Shown here: piece by piece, positions 1 to 7,893 of the stretch | Position numbering within the stretch: position 1 is the stretch's first letter | How the letters are laid out: every line of letters starts with the position of its first letter | NCBI GenBank assembly: GCA_021806345.1 | Contig: JAJZXP010000441.1 | Span: forward strand, 1 to 8,177 | Length of the DNA stretch: 8,177 nt | Source of the DNA: Thermoplasmata archaeon | GTDB taxonomy: Archaea; Thermoplasmatota; Thermoplasmata; Thermoplasmatales; Thermoplasmataceae | Direction of reading: 5' to 3' | Position numbers and translations under genes: made by a program | The notes under the pieces: model-generated | The model's input: the letters and a program-made list of their open reading frames with translations, nothing else | What the model was told of the DNA's origin: nothing | The model's database searches: none

Positions 1-1189
1 AGGAAACAAGCTCGGGATTGATCCTGATCAGATCCTGTTTCCCATGACCATGGACATGAATGAGAGATCCCTGAGGAACATAATCATTAATGATGGTGGG
101 AAAGAAGAGGGGCCACTTATCAGGGAACATTTTGTAATCACCCCTGCCTCTGAGGTCATGTCCATCCTTGGCCTTTCAACATCCTATGAAGATCTTGTAA
201 GTAGACTCTCTAAAATCACTGTAGCTAAAACCTTTGATGGAAAGTACGTTTACGCCTCTGATCTGGAGGCCCAGGGTGCAATGGCAGCAATGCTTGTTGA
301 TGCCTTAAAACCCAATCTTGCCCAGACCACCGAAGGTGTGCCCGCATTTATTCATACGGGGCCCTTTGGAAATATTTCACATGGAACTTCCAGCATCCTT
401 TCATTCAGGATGGGGTTAGCATACGCAGATTACCTTGTCACTGAAGGTGGATTCGGCTCAGATCTTGGGTTTGAAAAATACATGAATATTATTTCAAGAA
501 ATTTTGGTGTTGAGGTTTCAGCTGTTGTCATCGTGGCCACTATAAGGGCAATAAAGTCCTTTGACAGAACTGGAAAAGGAGACATGGGTGAAGGAATTGG
601 AAACTTATTACATCACATCAGAATTGTGAAAAGCTTTGGGTTTGAACCAGTAGTTTCACTCAACCGCTTTGAGGATGATTCAGAGGAGGATGTGCATAAT
701 CTCATTACTACATTGAGAGAAAATGGATTCAATATAGCAGAATCAGAGGTATTCAGCAAAGGTGGATCTGGTGGGCTCAAGCTTGCAGATTTGGTACTGG
801 AACATCTTGATAACAATCATGGGGCCAGAAGTTATACTTATGACCTGGAAGACAGTATAAAAGAAAAAATTGAGAAGATTGGTAAATCGATCTATGAAGT
901 GGATAAAGTAATATTCTCTAGAAATTCATTAGCTCATATTGAAGAAATACAAAAAATGCCTAATTCTAATTTGCCAATCTGTATTTCTAAAAGTCAGTAT
1001 TCTTTCCATGGAAATAAGCCAAACAGCTCTGATAATAACCTTAAAATCAATGATGTTAAGGTCAATTCTGGCTCTGGATTGATCATTGCATATTCTGGAG
1101 ATATCATGACAATGCCTGGCTTGCCAGAAATTCCAGCAGCCTGCAACATAAATATAGATAAGTTTGGAGTGATCTCTAATTTAGTTTAA
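1..1189 (+). CDS. fhs: Formate-tetrahydrofolate ligase, C-terminal part (5'-truncated by window edge)
   Basis: This enzyme joins formate to tetrahydrofolate using ATP, giving 10-formyl-THF for purine and other one-carbon biosynthesis in the cytoplasm. The reading frame is open from base 2 and runs through the first ATG (44) without a break. The codons before that ATG already match the family (GNKLGIDPDQ), so the true start lies outside the window. About 395 residues are visible of the usual ~555; the N-terminal P-loop region is missing. Recognisable family blocks are DMNERSLRNI, ASEVMSILGL, KPNLAQTTEGVPAFIHTGPF, VTEGGFGSDLG, the SEVFSKGGSGGL loop, and the end block IMTMPGLPEIPAACNI. Compared with the Moorella enzyme as I remember it, the loop Trp that stacks on the pterin is Phe here (codon 752-754). 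There is also a shortening of roughly eight residues around 'TGKGDMGEGIGN'. GC is about 43% up to base 840 and about 32% afterwards (hand counts). The gene converges on the defence operon. Confidence 0.93.
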   Translation, partial: GNKLGIDPDQILFPMTMDMNERSLRNIIINDGGKEEGPLIREHFVITPASEVMSILGLSTSYEDLVSRLSKITVAKTFDGKYVYASDLEAQGAMAAMLVDALKPNLAQTTEGVPAFIHTGPFGNISHGTSSILSFRMGLAYADYLVTEGGFGSDLGFEKYMNIISRNFGVEVSAVVIVATIRAIKSFDRTGKGDMGEGIGNLLHHIRIVKSFGFEPVVSLNRFEDDSEEDVHNLITTLRENGFNIAESEVFSKGGSGGLKLADLVLEHLDNNHGARSYTYDLEDSIKEKIEKIGKSIYEVDKVIFSRNSLAHIEEIQKMPNSNLPICISKSQYSFHGNKPNSSDNNLKINDVKVNSGSGLIIAYSGDIMTMPGLPEIPAACNINIDKFGVISNLV

Positions 1190-1229
1190 TTTATTATAAA
1201 TATTACTGATTTTAGGAATTATATACTTA

Positions 1230-1277
1230 ACCGACTGTTTTTATTGAAAAGAAATATGAAGTCGGTATTTGTAAAAA
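1230..1277. terminator. Convergent terminator region: hairpin plus T-runs on both strands
   Basis: A perfect 7-bp inverted repeat (ACCGACT at 1230-1236, AGTCGGT at 1260-1266) encloses a 23-nt loop. On the plus strand a TTTTTATT run lies inside the loop (1238-1245). On the minus strand a run of six T (1277-1272) follows directly after the stop codon of the nuclease gene. Archaeal termination depends mainly on T-runs, so the T-runs are the stronger part of this call and the hairpin may be incidental. It sits between two convergent genes, where a bidirectional terminator is expected. Confidence 0.5.
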
Positions 1278-1278
1278 A

Positions 1279-2244
1279 TTAATTCCATTTAGATAGCCAA
1301 TCATCAAGATCAGGAATATTTATGCAGGGAGTTGTAGAAAGATCAATTTGATAATGGGTCTTGGAGACACCCGATGGTTCCGGTTCCCCAAAATGAGGAA
1401 TTTTATTAGCCCAAAAAAGAGATAAGGATCTTTCAGCTTCTAAAGCATCAAATATAGGCCCCAATTCATCTTGACTTTCCATTTTTGATATTCTTTCTGC
1501 CTTGACAAGTTTAACCAGGTCGCTTTCGCTGTTAATATTATTTTTTGCTATGTTTAATAAATCTCTTAAACTTATTCCTGAATCTTCATATCTAAGCATG
1601 ATCGAAGCTACAATGATCTCCTCACCCTCGAAAGAGTATACTTGGCGATGAGAGAATTGATGGATTCTTTCACTCCCAGTGGTTGTTTTAACTTCTACGC
1701 GTTTATCAGATGATGAAAAGTCAAATTTTCTAGACGGTTCGCTATGCCAATATGGAAGCCAAAATTTGAACCCCTTAACTTGACTCATAAAAAAAAGTTC
1801 ACCCCATAATCCCTGTCTTTCAGTAATTACATCATTTGAAGGATTAATTGAAAACAACTTTGAAACTGAGAGAAAAAAGGTTAAGAGATCTGATCTTTTA
1901 ATTTTATTATCATGGATAAAACCTAAGAAACCACCGATGAGTGATAAAAATGTGTGTACATCAATATCAACATTTGACTCACATATAAGTAAGTCTAACT
2001 TTTCAATTATTGGCGGCATTCCAGAAATTGATATCTTATACTCATTACCGAGTTGGAGTGATATATGAGTGGTTCTCATACTTGGACCTAAGGATTTATC
2101 CAAACTGCAATCTACAAAAAGGGAAGGCCATCCAGATGTATTTACTCCGATGTATGAGCCTAAAAAACCAGAAATAGGAACTACCTTGAAAGTGTGTTCA
2201 AAATTGTCACCCTTCAATTGGCTAAAAAGATCTTCAATATTCAT
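1279..2244 (-). CDS. PD-(D/E)XK motif protein (DUF4420-type), predicted restriction nuclease subunit
   Basis: This is probably the DNA-cutting subunit of the operon. With the chosen start it has 321 residues, usual for DUF4420 (PF14390) proteins. The nuclease-fold signature is in the middle: E149 in GLWGELFFM, D175 in RKFDF, and the E184-V-K186 pair in RVEVKTT, i.e. E...D...ExK as in restriction-type nucleases. About 140 N-terminal residues form a separate region of beta strands. The C-terminal third (SLRDLLNIAKNN onward) is mostly helical and ends in DDWLSKWN. I chose the ATG at 2244 because GAGG lies 8 nt upstream (2256-2253) and it leaves only an 11-nt overlap with the Z1 stop. An in-frame ATG at 2265 would add seven residues and has a poorer site. 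It is the last gene of the operon, where related systems often carry a further AIPR gene; none follows here. Nuclease activity is inferred from the motif only. Confidence 0.85.
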   Translation of the reverse strand: MNIEDLFSQLKGDNFEHTFKVVPISGFLGSYIGVNTSGWPSLFVDCSLDKSLGPSMRTTHISLQLGNEYKISISGMPPIIEKLDLLICESNVDIDVHTFLSLIGGFLGFIHDNKIKRSDLLTFFLSVSKLFSINPSNDVITERQGLWGELFFMSQVKGFKFWLPYWHSEPSRKFDFSSSDKRVEVKTTTGSERIHQFSHRQVYSFEGEEIIVASIMLRYEDSGISLRDLLNIAKNNINSESDLVKLVKAERISKMESQDELGPIFDALEAERSLSLFWANKIPHFGEPEPSGVSKTHYQIDLSTTPCINIPDLDDWLSKWN

Positions 2245-4381
2245 TTTCCGTTCCTCTAACAACATAATCCCCTAAGATATAGTTAGAGTTATCTTCTGGT
2301 ATATAGACTGCAAAGGATGTTGAAACTATAGTCCTTGGATCGGTTTCCCTTAATCTTGGTGCAATTATATGAACTTGAAATTGTGGCTTCCCATCATGGA
2401 TATATCTATCTCCGAGATAATTCGCACTTTCTCCTGAGAAAGGTTCAACTTTATCATCAGTCTTTGTTCTGTCCTCAATATTTCCATTCCTCATTAGAAG
2501 CAAATCGATTGTTTCCAGTTTTCTAGAACTGCTAAGACGTGACAAATATTCTATGACATATTCATTTTCCCAATCTGTTTTACTTGAAACTACATTATTA
2601 AGAAGTTCTAAGACTAACTCCATTGGACAATTCTTAATGACAGAGTGCTCAATAGATCCATATTCCTTTTGGATAGCTTGATGTCGCCAGAAAAATTCCT
2701 TAACATATATTACGTTTTTTTCTGCACTGGAAAAATCCTCTATGAGTCTATGTTGAATTTTCCAACCCTTGATTTGGAATTTTTTATAATGTGCAACGTT
2801 TTTTCTAGTAGGATTTAGCTTTGCATCATAGTCCAATTCAAACATCCTTGGCCATTTTCTAATTGGAATTCCTGAATCAGAGTATCTTGATAGTGAATCC
2901 CAAAAGTCATTCTCGTGACGTAACAATACCTTGTAATCTTCCTTCAACTGTCCTGTTAAAAAAATTCTGCATACATCAAGATATTTTTTCTTATATCCAA
3001 ACCAACGTGCTCTTTGCTCAAGAGTATCCGCATTTGTGTCGTTCATTGCCCTTCTAGTTATGTATGTGACTGCTAACCCCCTAATTGTCAGCCCTCTTCC
3101 AAGCATGTTTCCACCTACAAAAATATTGTTTCCTAACTTAATTGGTGTGCTTAGAGGGTCTCTCCCAGTTGGAAGGCTGTTAACCATCCAGATTTCTAAC
3201 TGCCATAGCTCGTATAAGAGTCCATCCTTTACTTCGGACCAACTTGGAATAGGATTTACGGTAGGAATTAATTTTTCATAAGCGGTAAAGAATAATTTAA
3301 GAAGTGATTGTTTTTCAGGATCAGTATCGACATTATTTAACGTAATTCTCCAATCCCGAATAATATCTTCTTTCACAATCTTGTAAGATTTGTCGTGTTC
3401 AGATTTTAAACTACTATTGTGAATAAGCATCGAATGCCAGTCCATATCTCCCCTTTTATGCCTTATAACAGCCCCTACAAAAAATATAGCGATGGCAAGA
3501 CGCAGAGAATCGTTAATTGTTGAACCACCATTTTCTGCATCGATAATTGGAATTTCTTGCACAAATTCATTTATCGATTCACCAAAAAAAGTAGATCCTC
3601 CGCAATAACCACTACCTGGATTAATTAATATTCCAAAGTCGGGAGAAAGTGAATCAATTCCTTCCAATAATAAATTTGCCTCGGGAGTTGCTGTGTAGGC
3701 AATATAAGCATGAATCTTTAATATATCCCTTAACAATCGAATGCTCTTATAGACGGAAGATTCTTTCTTTTTCCTAAACATAGTATTAAGAGAAGCTTCA
3801 TCACCCTCATCATCTATGATTAATATTGGGCAAGTATTGATATCTTTTTGAGAAAATATTTCATAAATATCTTTGATCCTGTTTTGTCTCTTAAGGGCAA
3901 CTATAAGGGCATATTTTTTAGAATGATATTTGTTAGAGTGAAGTACACTTTCAATAACTTGAGAATCTACTGAACTTGTTGGATTTTTAAATGGAGTAAT
4001 ATTTGGTCGTTCTCCTACAAGATCTTTGAGAAGACGAGCATATGTTTGTTCAAGTAATGGGGTCTTTGTTCCTGCTAAGACAATAACTACGCCATATCCA
4101 TTATCATATGCTAATGCTACAAGCACTGAATAGGAAAGAGTCTTTCCACTCTGAACCTTCCCAATAGCTAAACCGGTAGACGAGCCTGAAGGTGATAGTG
4201 GATTGGGACATTGCCCTAAAATATTGGCGGCAGTTTTAACGATCCCTTCCCAATCTTCTTCACTGACTTCTGCAGAATATTTATTTCTAATATGAGACAG
4301 TTCTTCTCCTTCAATATTAACAACCCATGGTTGAAATGATGAATTGTTCGTCGGATCTATTCCAAATGCGTTAGAGTCCAT
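2234..4381 (-). CDS. Z1 domain helicase-like ATPase (superfamily 2)
   Basis: This is a large SF2-type motor protein of the Z1 family (PF10593), found almost only in mobile restriction-like systems beside MORC/MutL-type ATPases. It has 715 residues. In order: Walker A GKVQSGKT (74-81, Lys80), with the VQSGKT form typical of Z1; Walker B as LIIDDEGDEAS (187-197); motif III TATPEAN (230-236); GNMLGRGLTIRGL (motif V, 424 on); and QRARWFGYK (motif VI, 456-464), where many Z1 proteins have Gly instead of the Ala. The C-terminal ~200 residues match nothing I recognise. Tandem ATGs lie at 4384 and 4381. GGTGA (4392-4388) sits 3 nt before the first and 6 nt before the second, so I prefer 4381. The gene overlaps the ATPase gene upstream by 11 nt and the nuclease gene downstream by 11 nt, implying coupled translation and a shared complex. 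DNA translocation is a family inference. Confidence 0.92.
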   Translation of the reverse strand: MDSNAFGIDPTNNSSFQPWVVNIEGEELSHIRNKYSAEVSEEDWEGIVKTAANILGQCPNPLSPSGSSTGLAIGKVQSGKTLSYSVLVALAYDNGYGVVIVLAGTKTPLLEQTYARLLKDLVGERPNITPFKNPTSSVDSQVIESVLHSNKYHSKKYALIVALKRQNRIKDIYEIFSQKDINTCPILIIDDEGDEASLNTMFRKKKESSVYKSIRLLRDILKIHAYIAYTATPEANLLLEGIDSLSPDFGILINPGSGYCGGSTFFGESINEFVQEIPIIDAENGGSTINDSLRLAIAIFFVGAVIRHKRGDMDWHSMLIHNSSLKSEHDKSYKIVKEDIIRDWRITLNNVDTDPEKQSLLKLFFTAYEKLIPTVNPIPSWSEVKDGLLYELWQLEIWMVNSLPTGRDPLSTPIKLGNNIFVGGNMLGRGLTIRGLAVTYITRRAMNDTNADTLEQRARWFGYKKKYLDVCRIFLTGQLKEDYKVLLRHENDFWDSLSRYSDSGIPIRKWPRMFELDYDAKLNPTRKNVAHYKKFQIKGWKIQHRLIEDFSSAEKNVIYVKEFFWRHQAIQKEYGSIEHSVIKNCPMELVLELLNNVVSSKTDWENEYVIEYLSRLSSSRKLETIDLLLMRNGNIEDRTKTDDKVEPFSGESANYLGDRYIHDGKPQFQVHIIAPRLRETDPRTIVSTSFAVYIPEDNSNYILGDYVVRGTENEY

Positions 4382-5945
4382 CATTCCTCACCAACTCTGA
4401 TGCTTTTCTAAGTACAGAGTTCATTTTTGTTCTTATCTCGCCAGGTGAGACTAGCCCGTTTATTGCAGAATTCCTCGCCAATTTTTCAGCGAGGGCAAGG
4501 GCTATTACAAACTTGTGAAGAACTTGTAAATTAGCCCCATTTTCAAGAAATTCAGAGAAGAAGGAATTTGCCATGTTTAGATATATATTAATTAGATTTT
4601 CCTGCGGATAATCAACACTCATCCAATTTGCATCGCTCAATTGATCTTGCCAATAAAGCCGAAAAGTCAAGTTAGAGGAACCTAAAAAGAGGTTAAATTC
4701 AATTGGGGTATCGCTAACAGATTCAAGTTTCTTTGTATCCTCTACCTGTACAGATATAGGTTTTTGAGTTGTAGGAAATTCCATCTCCTCTATAATTGCT
4801 TCTTCAAATTTTTTATCCGAAAATAATTTTTTTATAGGTTCAGAACTAAATACCATTTCAGTTTTATCTAAAGGTTTATTTCTTTCTCTATGGCCTTCTG
4901 CTTTTTCCATATATTCTTGGCAATTTGATCTTAACTCGGAAATAAATAATTCCTCAAGATCTCCTGACCAGTCAAATGCATCCTTGGCTTGTGTGACTGG
5001 CCAATCATTCATATGGAGTTCTCCCACCAGTCTTTGTGATCTAAAAGAGTTTGCTTGACCAAATATCTCAGTAGGTTTGTATCCCTCACCCGGTCCACCA
5101 ATAATAACTCTTCCTCTCCTTAATAACGCAAATCCTGCATCACGTTGACTACCAGGAATCATAATTCCCACCCAACCACTAGCATTTAAATAATTAGATG
5201 TTATCGGATTTTGTATCTTGATAGAAATATCTCTTTTCCATAAAGTCTGTTTTTCGCTGCCATGATCTTCTGTAAGCAATGGTGGTTCCTTGAAACTTAA
5301 TGGTTCTCCATTCCACAATATTTCAACCTCCTTCGTTCGAAGGTCTTCTCTATAAATACTTCCAAGTTGATCCTTAATTCTTCCAAGAGTTCTTCCTTTT
5401 AATGGTTTATATAACTGTTCAATTTTTATCTCTGTGAAGTGGGTTTTTTCATCAGTAAATCGTTGTACAACTTCTATTTCTTCAGATTTTTTAATTGCAA
5501 GATCAGGTACATGTACAGAGATTTGTAATTCACGAGATGATCCAAGCATAGTGGTTCTAATACTCCATTTTCTCCCGAACCAGCATGCTGCAGTCTTTAG
5601 TCCCATCCCAAATTCACATCTTCCAGTATTGTTACGAGGAGGACTGTTTAACATTACTGCTCTTCTTAAATCGTCTAATTCCATACCATTTGCGTTGTCA
5701 AAAATCACCAAAGAATTCTGCTCATCATCATAATTAATTACTATTCTTAATTTTTTGAACTTTTCCCCCTCATATGCTTTTATTAGAGAAACCTTATTGT
5801 TGTAGTAACTTTGTGTGGAGTTATCAACGAATTCTGCTATGGCGTACCAAGGTTTATAGCTAAGCCTTTGATATGTTGCATATACTCCTGAATCTGGCCT
5901 CACACTAATTGTTTCATTTTCTAATCTTTCTACATCAACTGACAT
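4371..5945 (-). CDS. MORC/MutL-like GHKL ATPase of the Z1 defence operon
   Basis: This is a predicted ATP-operated clamp or switch protein that works with the Z1 motor and the nuclease. It has 524 residues from the chosen start. The GHKL (Hsp90/MutL/MORC) fold is clear: N-box AIAEFVDNSTQS with E38, D41 and N42; motif G1 DNANGM (83-88); glycine-rich lid FGMGLKTAA (112-120); and HFTEI near 169 as the G3 position. A second domain contains WPVTQAKDAFDW; its Lys321 fits the S5-domain lysine that reaches the ATP in MutL and MORC proteins. The first Gly of the usual DxGxG is Ala; this may be normal for the subfamily. The last ~150 residues are acidic, then helical (an ALALAEKLARN segment), with no recognised domain. 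An upstream GTG at 5954 overlaps the methyltransferase stop as GTGA. I prefer the ATG at 5945, because GGAG (5960-5957) lies only 2 nt from the GTG and GTGA lies 5 nt from the ATG. The start stays uncertain by 9 nt. Confidence 0.88.
   Translation of the reverse strand: MSVDVERLENETISVRPDSGVYATYQRLSYKPWYAIAEFVDNSTQSYYNNKVSLIKAYEGEKFKKLRIVINYDDEQNSLVIFDNANGMELDDLRRAVMLNSPPRNNTGRCEFGMGLKTAACWFGRKWSIRTTMLGSSRELQISVHVPDLAIKKSEEIEVVQRFTDEKTHFTEIKIEQLYKPLKGRTLGRIKDQLGSIYREDLRTKEVEILWNGEPLSFKEPPLLTEDHGSEKQTLWKRDISIKIQNPITSNYLNASGWVGIMIPGSQRDAGFALLRRGRVIIGGPGEGYKPTEIFGQANSFRSQRLVGELHMNDWPVTQAKDAFDWSGDLEELFISELRSNCQEYMEKAEGHRERNKPLDKTEMVFSSEPIKKLFSDKKFEEAIIEEMEFPTTQKPISVQVEDTKKLESVSDTPIEFNLFLGSSNLTFRLYWQDQLSDANWMSVDYPQENLINIYLNMANSFFSEFLENGANLQVLHKFVIALALAEKLARNSAINGLVSPGEIRTKMNSVLRKASELVRNDGL
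4386..4392 (-). promoter_or_regulatory. Ribosome binding site for the Z1 gene
   Basis: GGTGAGG is read on the minus strand inside the 3' end of the ATPase gene. GGTGA is complementary to the conserved 3' end of archaeal 16S rRNA (CACCUCC region). Its spacing is 3 nt to the ATG at 4384 and 6 nt to the ATG at 4381, which favours the second as start. Confidence 0.6.
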
Positions 5946-5950
5946 TATAT

Positions 5951-7324
5951 TCACTTCTCCATAATTGTAGGTTCACTTACTACGTTCTCATTCCATATTT
6001 GTTTTTTTGAGTATTGCTGTACATGATTCTTTTTTTCAGCCATACCCACGAGTGCATTTGCAACTATATTAGCAACTTCCACGTTTACAGCATTCCCGAG
6101 AGAAGAATAAGCCCTGGACAAAGTTGACGGTAAGAAATTTAATTGTTCCATGCTTTGCAATCTCTTGCACTCCAATGGTGTAATGTATCTGTTTTCCCAC
6201 ATAACTATTGGAACTTGAGACATGTTCATTGCTACGAGAGCAGGAGAGGTATTTGGGCGTTTTACCCTGATTCCAGAAGGCCTTAGTTGAATCACATAAT
6301 TTGTTAAACTTCTATTTTCATCTAGTGGATTTTTCTTATGACAATTCCATTCAAATTTTTGAAAACTTGGGACAAATTTCTGTACCTTTTCAGCCCAAGT
6401 TCGTAGATCTTGCTCATACTTTAAAAATAAATTTCTACTATTTTTTATGTATTTGACCTTCCAATCTGGGAATTTTGCATTAGATCTTGCATATCGTGGA
6501 AGCATACATAGCAATTCTTCTTTGGTTGATGCAATATTTAATTCTTTACCAAATGATCCTTTATATTTTCTCAACTCGTCTAAAGACAATTCAAAAGGTG
6601 GTTTATCTTCAAATGGGTAAGTAGCTCCATACTCCATTGCCCAAAGAGGAAGTGGTATGTGTTCACTTTTTGGTATAATGTTCAAAAATTCTTGCCATGT
6701 TTCAATTTTTTGTTTCAGTTCTAACGAGATATTCCTAACATCGCTAGAATTAGTAGATAAAACTGACTTCAAATTTAAATCAAATTTCCTAGAATCTCGT
6801 ACATTTTTAATTTTTTTTGAAATATCAACTAACGGAGAGAGACTTGCTACGATATATACCCTATACCTCACCTGTGGAATACCAAATTGGTGAGGTGAAA
6901 TTTCCTCTATGTCAACAAAATATCCTTGATTTTCAAGTTCCTTCTTAATAATTGACCAACTTCGTCCATTTCCGTGATTCTTAAGATTGGGAACATTTTC
7001 AAGGATGATATAGTGTGGTTTGTGAAAATTAACAACCTTTAATATTTGTTGATATAAATCCCCCAATTTTGGATGATCCAATCCAGCTTGTGCTCCCGCC
7101 TTTGAAAACGGTTGGCATGGAAAACCTGCACACAAAATATCATGACTTGGAATGTCAGCGGGATGTATATCCCTAATATCTCCTGAACAATTCATTCCAA
7201 AATTTTTATTGTACAAATCCCGTAATTCAACATCTATCTCTGATGCGAAAACACATTCGTGCCCTAATCTATCAAGGGCTAAATGAAAACCCCCCAGCCC
7301 CGCAAAGAGATCTATAAATTTCAC
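5951..7324 (-). CDS. dcm: DNA (cytosine-5-)-methyltransferase
   Basis: The enzyme transfers a methyl group from S-adenosylmethionine to C5 of cytosine at a specific DNA site; here it most likely marks self DNA for the downstream restriction genes. With the chosen start it has 457 residues. Ordered motifs: I KFIDLFAGLGGFHLAL (2-17); IV GFPCQPFSKAG with catalytic Cys70; VI ENVPNL (109-114); VIII QFGIPQVRYRVYI with QVRYR at 151-155; IX RPSGIRVKRPNTSPAL (from 348); X GNAV (410-413). About 190 residues between VIII and IX form the target recognition region, whose site cannot be read from sequence. The frame extends upstream to a TTG at 7417. I prefer the GTG at 7324 because the family typically begins 'MKFIDLFAGLGG' and because a BRE/TATA box lies inside the extra 93 nt. 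No clear SD precedes either start. It is the first gene of the operon; about 30 residues after motif X form a polar tail. The specific name dcm is by family, not by site. Confidence 0.92.
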   Translation of the reverse strand: MKFIDLFAGLGGFHLALDRLGHECVFASEIDVELRDLYNKNFGMNCSGDIRDIHPADIPSHDILCAGFPCQPFSKAGAQAGLDHPKLGDLYQQILKVVNFHKPHYIILENVPNLKNHGNGRSWSIIKKELENQGYFVDIEEISPHQFGIPQVRYRVYIVASLSPLVDISKKIKNVRDSRKFDLNLKSVLSTNSSDVRNISLELKQKIETWQEFLNIIPKSEHIPLPLWAMEYGATYPFEDKPPFELSLDELRKYKGSFGKELNIASTKEELLCMLPRYARSNAKFPDWKVKYIKNSRNLFLKYEQDLRTWAEKVQKFVPSFQKFEWNCHKKNPLDENRSLTNYVIQLRPSGIRVKRPNTSPALVAMNMSQVPIVMWENRYITPLECKRLQSMEQLNFLPSTLSRAYSSLGNAVNVEVANIVANALVGMAEKKNHVQQYSKKQIWNENVVSEPTIMEK

Positions 7325-7397
7325 AAAATTACAACGTGTTTTTATTGATAAAATTTTCGTTTTGAATAGGTTTGGAAGGCGATTATTTTGTAACAAA

Positions 7398-7411
7398 TCT
7401 TTATATTTTCT
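7398..7411 (-). promoter_or_regulatory. Predicted BRE/TATA promoter of the methyltransferase operon
   Basis: Read on the minus strand, AGAAAATATAAAGA gives a purine-rich BRE followed by TATAAA (7405-7400), the archaeal promoter form. Transcription would begin about 25 nt downstream, near 7378, leaving a leader of about 54 nt before the GTG at 7324. The alternative TTG start (7417) would lie upstream of this transcript. Placement is by consensus only. Confidence 0.45.
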
Positions 7412-7468
7412 AACCAAGCAATGTTAGAAAAAGAACAAATAGTTGTCTTTTCACAGATTGACTACTTC

Positions 7469-7481
7469 TATCATAATGATA
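7469..7481. repeat. 13-nt palindrome in the operon control region
   Basis: TATCATAATGATA is a perfect inverted repeat of two 6-nt arms around a central A. It lies about 65 nt upstream of the predicted TATA box, so it could be an upstream regulator site. In DNA this AT-rich a palindrome of this length can arise by chance. Confidence 0.3.
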
Positions 7482-7605
7482 ACTATTGAAAAGCACTAAG
7501 GTTTTTCCCTATCATTTGTCATTATTATTTTAATCCCATTTTTTTGTAGTTGGAAATTTGATAATAAGAATAAGGTTGTATCAATAAACAGTCACAGATA
7601 TAGGT

Positions 7606-7893
7606 TCAACTAATTGCTTTAATTTTCCTTTCAACAGAATTCTCAACATCTATTCTATGATCTATCTTTATTATTGTTTCCACTCTAAGAAATCCTTTAG
7701 ATACCAGGTATTCTTCAGCGTTTTTTATAGAATTAAAAAGGTCATCCATGGTTTCAGATTCAATCACAGTGGCCATACTGTTCGGATAACATTTAATATT
7801 TCCCTCTTTTAATTTATCAATGGCCCCTTTGATGGTCTTCCCCGCTGACACACCGCTTCCTATGGGATAAAATGTCACATCTGCAACTATCAT
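7606..7893 (-). CDS. MTH1187 family (UPF0045) thiamine-binding-type small protein
   Basis: This is a cytoplasmic protein of 95 residues with a ferredoxin-like fold, matching the length of the UPF0045/DUF77 family (PF01910). The family is named for a Methanothermobacter protein, and related YkoF-type domains bind thiamine or its precursors. Matching blocks are the first strand VADVTFYPIGSG (3-14), MATVIES (40-46) in the ligand-binding region, and RVETIIKIDHR (70-80). No signal peptide or membrane segment is present. The ATG at 7893 lies about 23 nt after the centre of a TATA-like box, so the mRNA may be leaderless or nearly so; no SD is seen. GC falls from about 41% (7741-7893) to about 27% (7606-7740), towards the defence operon. 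It is not part of the operon: 281 bases and a separate promoter lie between. The ligand in this organism is not established. Confidence 0.88.
   Translation of the reverse strand: MIVADVTFYPIGSGVSAGKTIKGAIDKLKEGNIKCYPNSMATVIESETMDDLFNSIKNAEEYLVSKGFLRVETIIKIDHRIDVENSVERKIKAIS

Follow-up and report, generated by a model that had tools for sequence, protein, structure and literature searches.

An intact Thermoplasmata copy of a predicted MORC operon, with apparent exchange of its methyltransferase gene

Introduction

A MORC operon of type 3 was predicted from gene neighbourhoods by Iyer, Abhiman and Aravind (2008, PMC2292703), with a GHKL+S5 ATPase, a superfamily 2 (SF2) helicase carrying a DThhQXuRhFG domain, a restriction-endonuclease-fold protein with E-D-ExK residues, and a neighbouring cytosine methylase. 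Other described systems share parts of this design. The CglI and NgoAVII restriction-modification systems (PMC4267653) have three genes and no MORC, and their nuclease is a PLD enzyme with a B3 DNA-binding domain; their cleavage is ATP-dependent and falls close to an unmethylated site. VcSduA/paraMORC3 Shedu (PMC12137116), which is anti-phage, couples a GHKL ATPase to a PD-(D/E)XK nuclease. We describe here a restriction-type operon of four genes, two of them for ATPases, from a Thermoplasmata archaeon (GCA_021806345.1, contig JAJZXP010000441.1), contained in a stretch of 8,177 nucleotides that we refer to as the window. It has all four type 3 features, like Shedu it pairs a GHKL ATPase with a PD-(D/E)XK nuclease, and it is a real and intact copy of a known predicted kind. 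There is no essential difference from the 2008 prediction; what is added is a four-gene order kept in 41 of 51 loci and, as the new part of this analysis, a pattern of methyltransferase exchange.

Results

The operon comprises the following genes and catalytic positions, the codons of the latter having been checked:

5951..7324, minus strand: C5-cytosine DNA methyltransferase, 457 aa from GTG 7324, with an in-frame TTG at 7417
7115..7117, minus strand: catalytic Cys70 (PCQPF, motif IV), C in 42 of 42 operons
4371..5954, minus strand: MORC-type GHKL+S5 ATPase of 527 aa if started at GTG 5954, 524 aa if at ATG 5945
4983..4985, minus strand: S5-domain lysine K324, K in 42 of 42 operons
2234..4384, minus strand: Z1 SF2 ATPase/helicase, matching PF10593
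4142..4144, minus strand: lysine K81 of the Walker A motif GKVQSGKT, conserved in all 42 operons
1279..2265, minus strand: DUF4420 PD-(D/E)XK nuclease of 328 aa if started at ATG 2265, 321 aa if at ATG 2244
1687..1800, minus strand: nuclease active-site stretch with E156, D182, E191 and K193, each in 42 of 42 operons

The methyltransferase gene appears, on comparison of sequences, to be swapped in and out beside a fixed three-protein DNA-cutting machine. In the exchanged pairs, identity in the methyltransferase target region is 0.33-0.40 where that of the trio is 0.64-0.75, and among nine aligned operon rows a long target-region stretch is present in the window, L003, L004, L008 and L023 and missing in L011, L018, L035 and L039. 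Both observations speak against a reading with a fixed target, as does the N-terminal part of the nuclease, which is among the least conserved parts of the protein, contrary to what a fixed target would lead one to expect. A fixed target would nonetheless fit the CglI precedent, the presence of that extra N-terminal domain on the nuclease, and the features outside the catalytic motifs that mark all 42 methyltransferases as one subfamily (QxRxSGxRxK in 42 of 42, PxWK in 41 of 42, and a KFEWNC-like stretch in 33 of 42); we regard it as doubtful.

In 46 of 51 loci the trio has a methyltransferase gene in the same orientation as its immediate upstream neighbour, which argues for tight coupling, and the L068 trio, at first taken to lack a methyltransferase, is closely preceded by a 143-aa fragment of one. 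These arrangements weigh against a model in which the trio is an Mza-like defence module that reads no sequence but senses ends, replication forks or modified bases in phage DNA, with the methyltransferase as a loosely coupled protector or anti-addiction partner, and we think that model unlikely. A phage assigned to Methanobacteriales encodes a further member of this extended methyltransferase subfamily (L106:2992-4203, 34.7% identity over 90%), possibly as a self-protection gene.

A sequence-only reading of the window had proposed a four-gene defence operon of these families; the operon is indeed real and intact, and the interpretation given to it is supported in part. The protein assignments stand. 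The methyltransferase scores 217.9 bits against PF00145 (cut-off 22) and 208.9 bits against TIGR00675 (cut-off 100.65), and its GTG start gives a length in line with those of its L002 and L003 homologues (454-456 aa). The Z1 protein scores 142.4 bits against PF10593 (cut-off 25) and 177.4 bits against PADLOC Helicase_II, with the Walker A, DE, TATP, RG and QRxR residues kept in 42 of 42 operons. Its C-terminal DThhQXuRhFG domain reads DTLEQRARWFG at 453-463, where one hydrophobic place is Glu, and D453, Q457, R460 and G463 are likewise present in 42 of 42. The four nuclease active-site residues are invariant among 66 aligned sequences, and PD-(D/E)XK nucleases are among the first matches listed for it, with modest Z scores of 6.7 at most.

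The ATPase lysine first numbered 321 is K324 in the 527-aa protein and is invariant in an alignment of 52 sequences, as are G274 and R282; GFALLRRGRVI at 274-284 matches the S5 motif GhXhhpXXRhl at all positions. The fold is nearest to MORC/SMCHD1 of eukaryotes, a likeness that would suit an operon for chromosome or epigenetic maintenance instead of defence, on the model of silencing by eukaryotic MORC proteins, although we consider such a role very improbable.

Several named systems were considered and rejected. The paraMORC2 class (Iyer 2008) has an S5-domain ExxxH, and no E...H occurs anywhere in the 527 residues; CglI/NgoAVII membership calls for a PLD-B3 nuclease as R-protein, and that of the window is DUF4420 PD-(D/E)XK. 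Scores fall far short of the NCBIfam equivalog cut-offs for Mza (132.3 bits against 1500 for MzaC, 15.7 against 850 for MzaB); the window nuclease has no MzaD match at E up to 1, and that of a relative reaches 21.7 bits against a cut-off of 420. The fifth gene of Mza is AIPR. Neither an AIPR gene nor one for a sigma factor, which is what mzaA encodes (PMC9523054), lies within the window, to which the annotation was confined.

The operon occurs in archaea, Chloroflexota, Bacillota, Mycoplasmatota, Bacteroidota and Spirochaetota, many of them metagenome bins, and on an actinobacterial plasmid. Downstream genes vary among the 42 loci, one representative of each kind having been scanned: a small gene of about 113 aa in 13 (e.g. 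L018:13671-14012; no Pfam match at E 0.01), preceded by a helix-turn-helix gene in seven of the 42; and, as DNA repair genes, a HhH-GPD glycosylase relative in four (L004-L007) and a Vsr relative in two (L002:8876-9295, where it sits behind a second methyltransferase, and L008). Both HhH-GPD glycosylase and Vsr kinds can repair products of 5-methylcytosine deamination.

In the window the operon is flanked by a thiamine-binding protein gene and by one further feature:

2-1189: formate-tetrahydrofolate ligase fragment

The host had been taken for a methanogen, which we reject: it belongs to Thermoplasmata, since McrA is absent from 77 of 77 genomes of the family, its own included (two methanogen controls were positive), the closest operons (L002 and L003) are both from Thermoplasmata, and the thiamine-binding protein is 73% identical to its counterpart in another family member. 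Genus placement is less sure, because that protein has no match in three same-genus genomes, whose ligases are only about 50% identical to that of the window. In the window's genome, C104 carries a further ligase copy and C121 part of one; either a second gene or a mixing of family members during binning would account for the divergence and the extra copy. Assembly contig C33 spans only window 863-7832, at 99.957% identity.

Discussion

Predicted as early as 2008, the arrangement is widespread in bacteria and archaea, apparently without experimental test, none having been found. If our reading of the exchange pattern is right, a single-gene swap between two cloned copies would tell directly whether the methyltransferase sets restriction specificity. 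This would also give a defined biochemical job to a prokaryotic MORC, a relative of the eukaryotic silencing ATPases.
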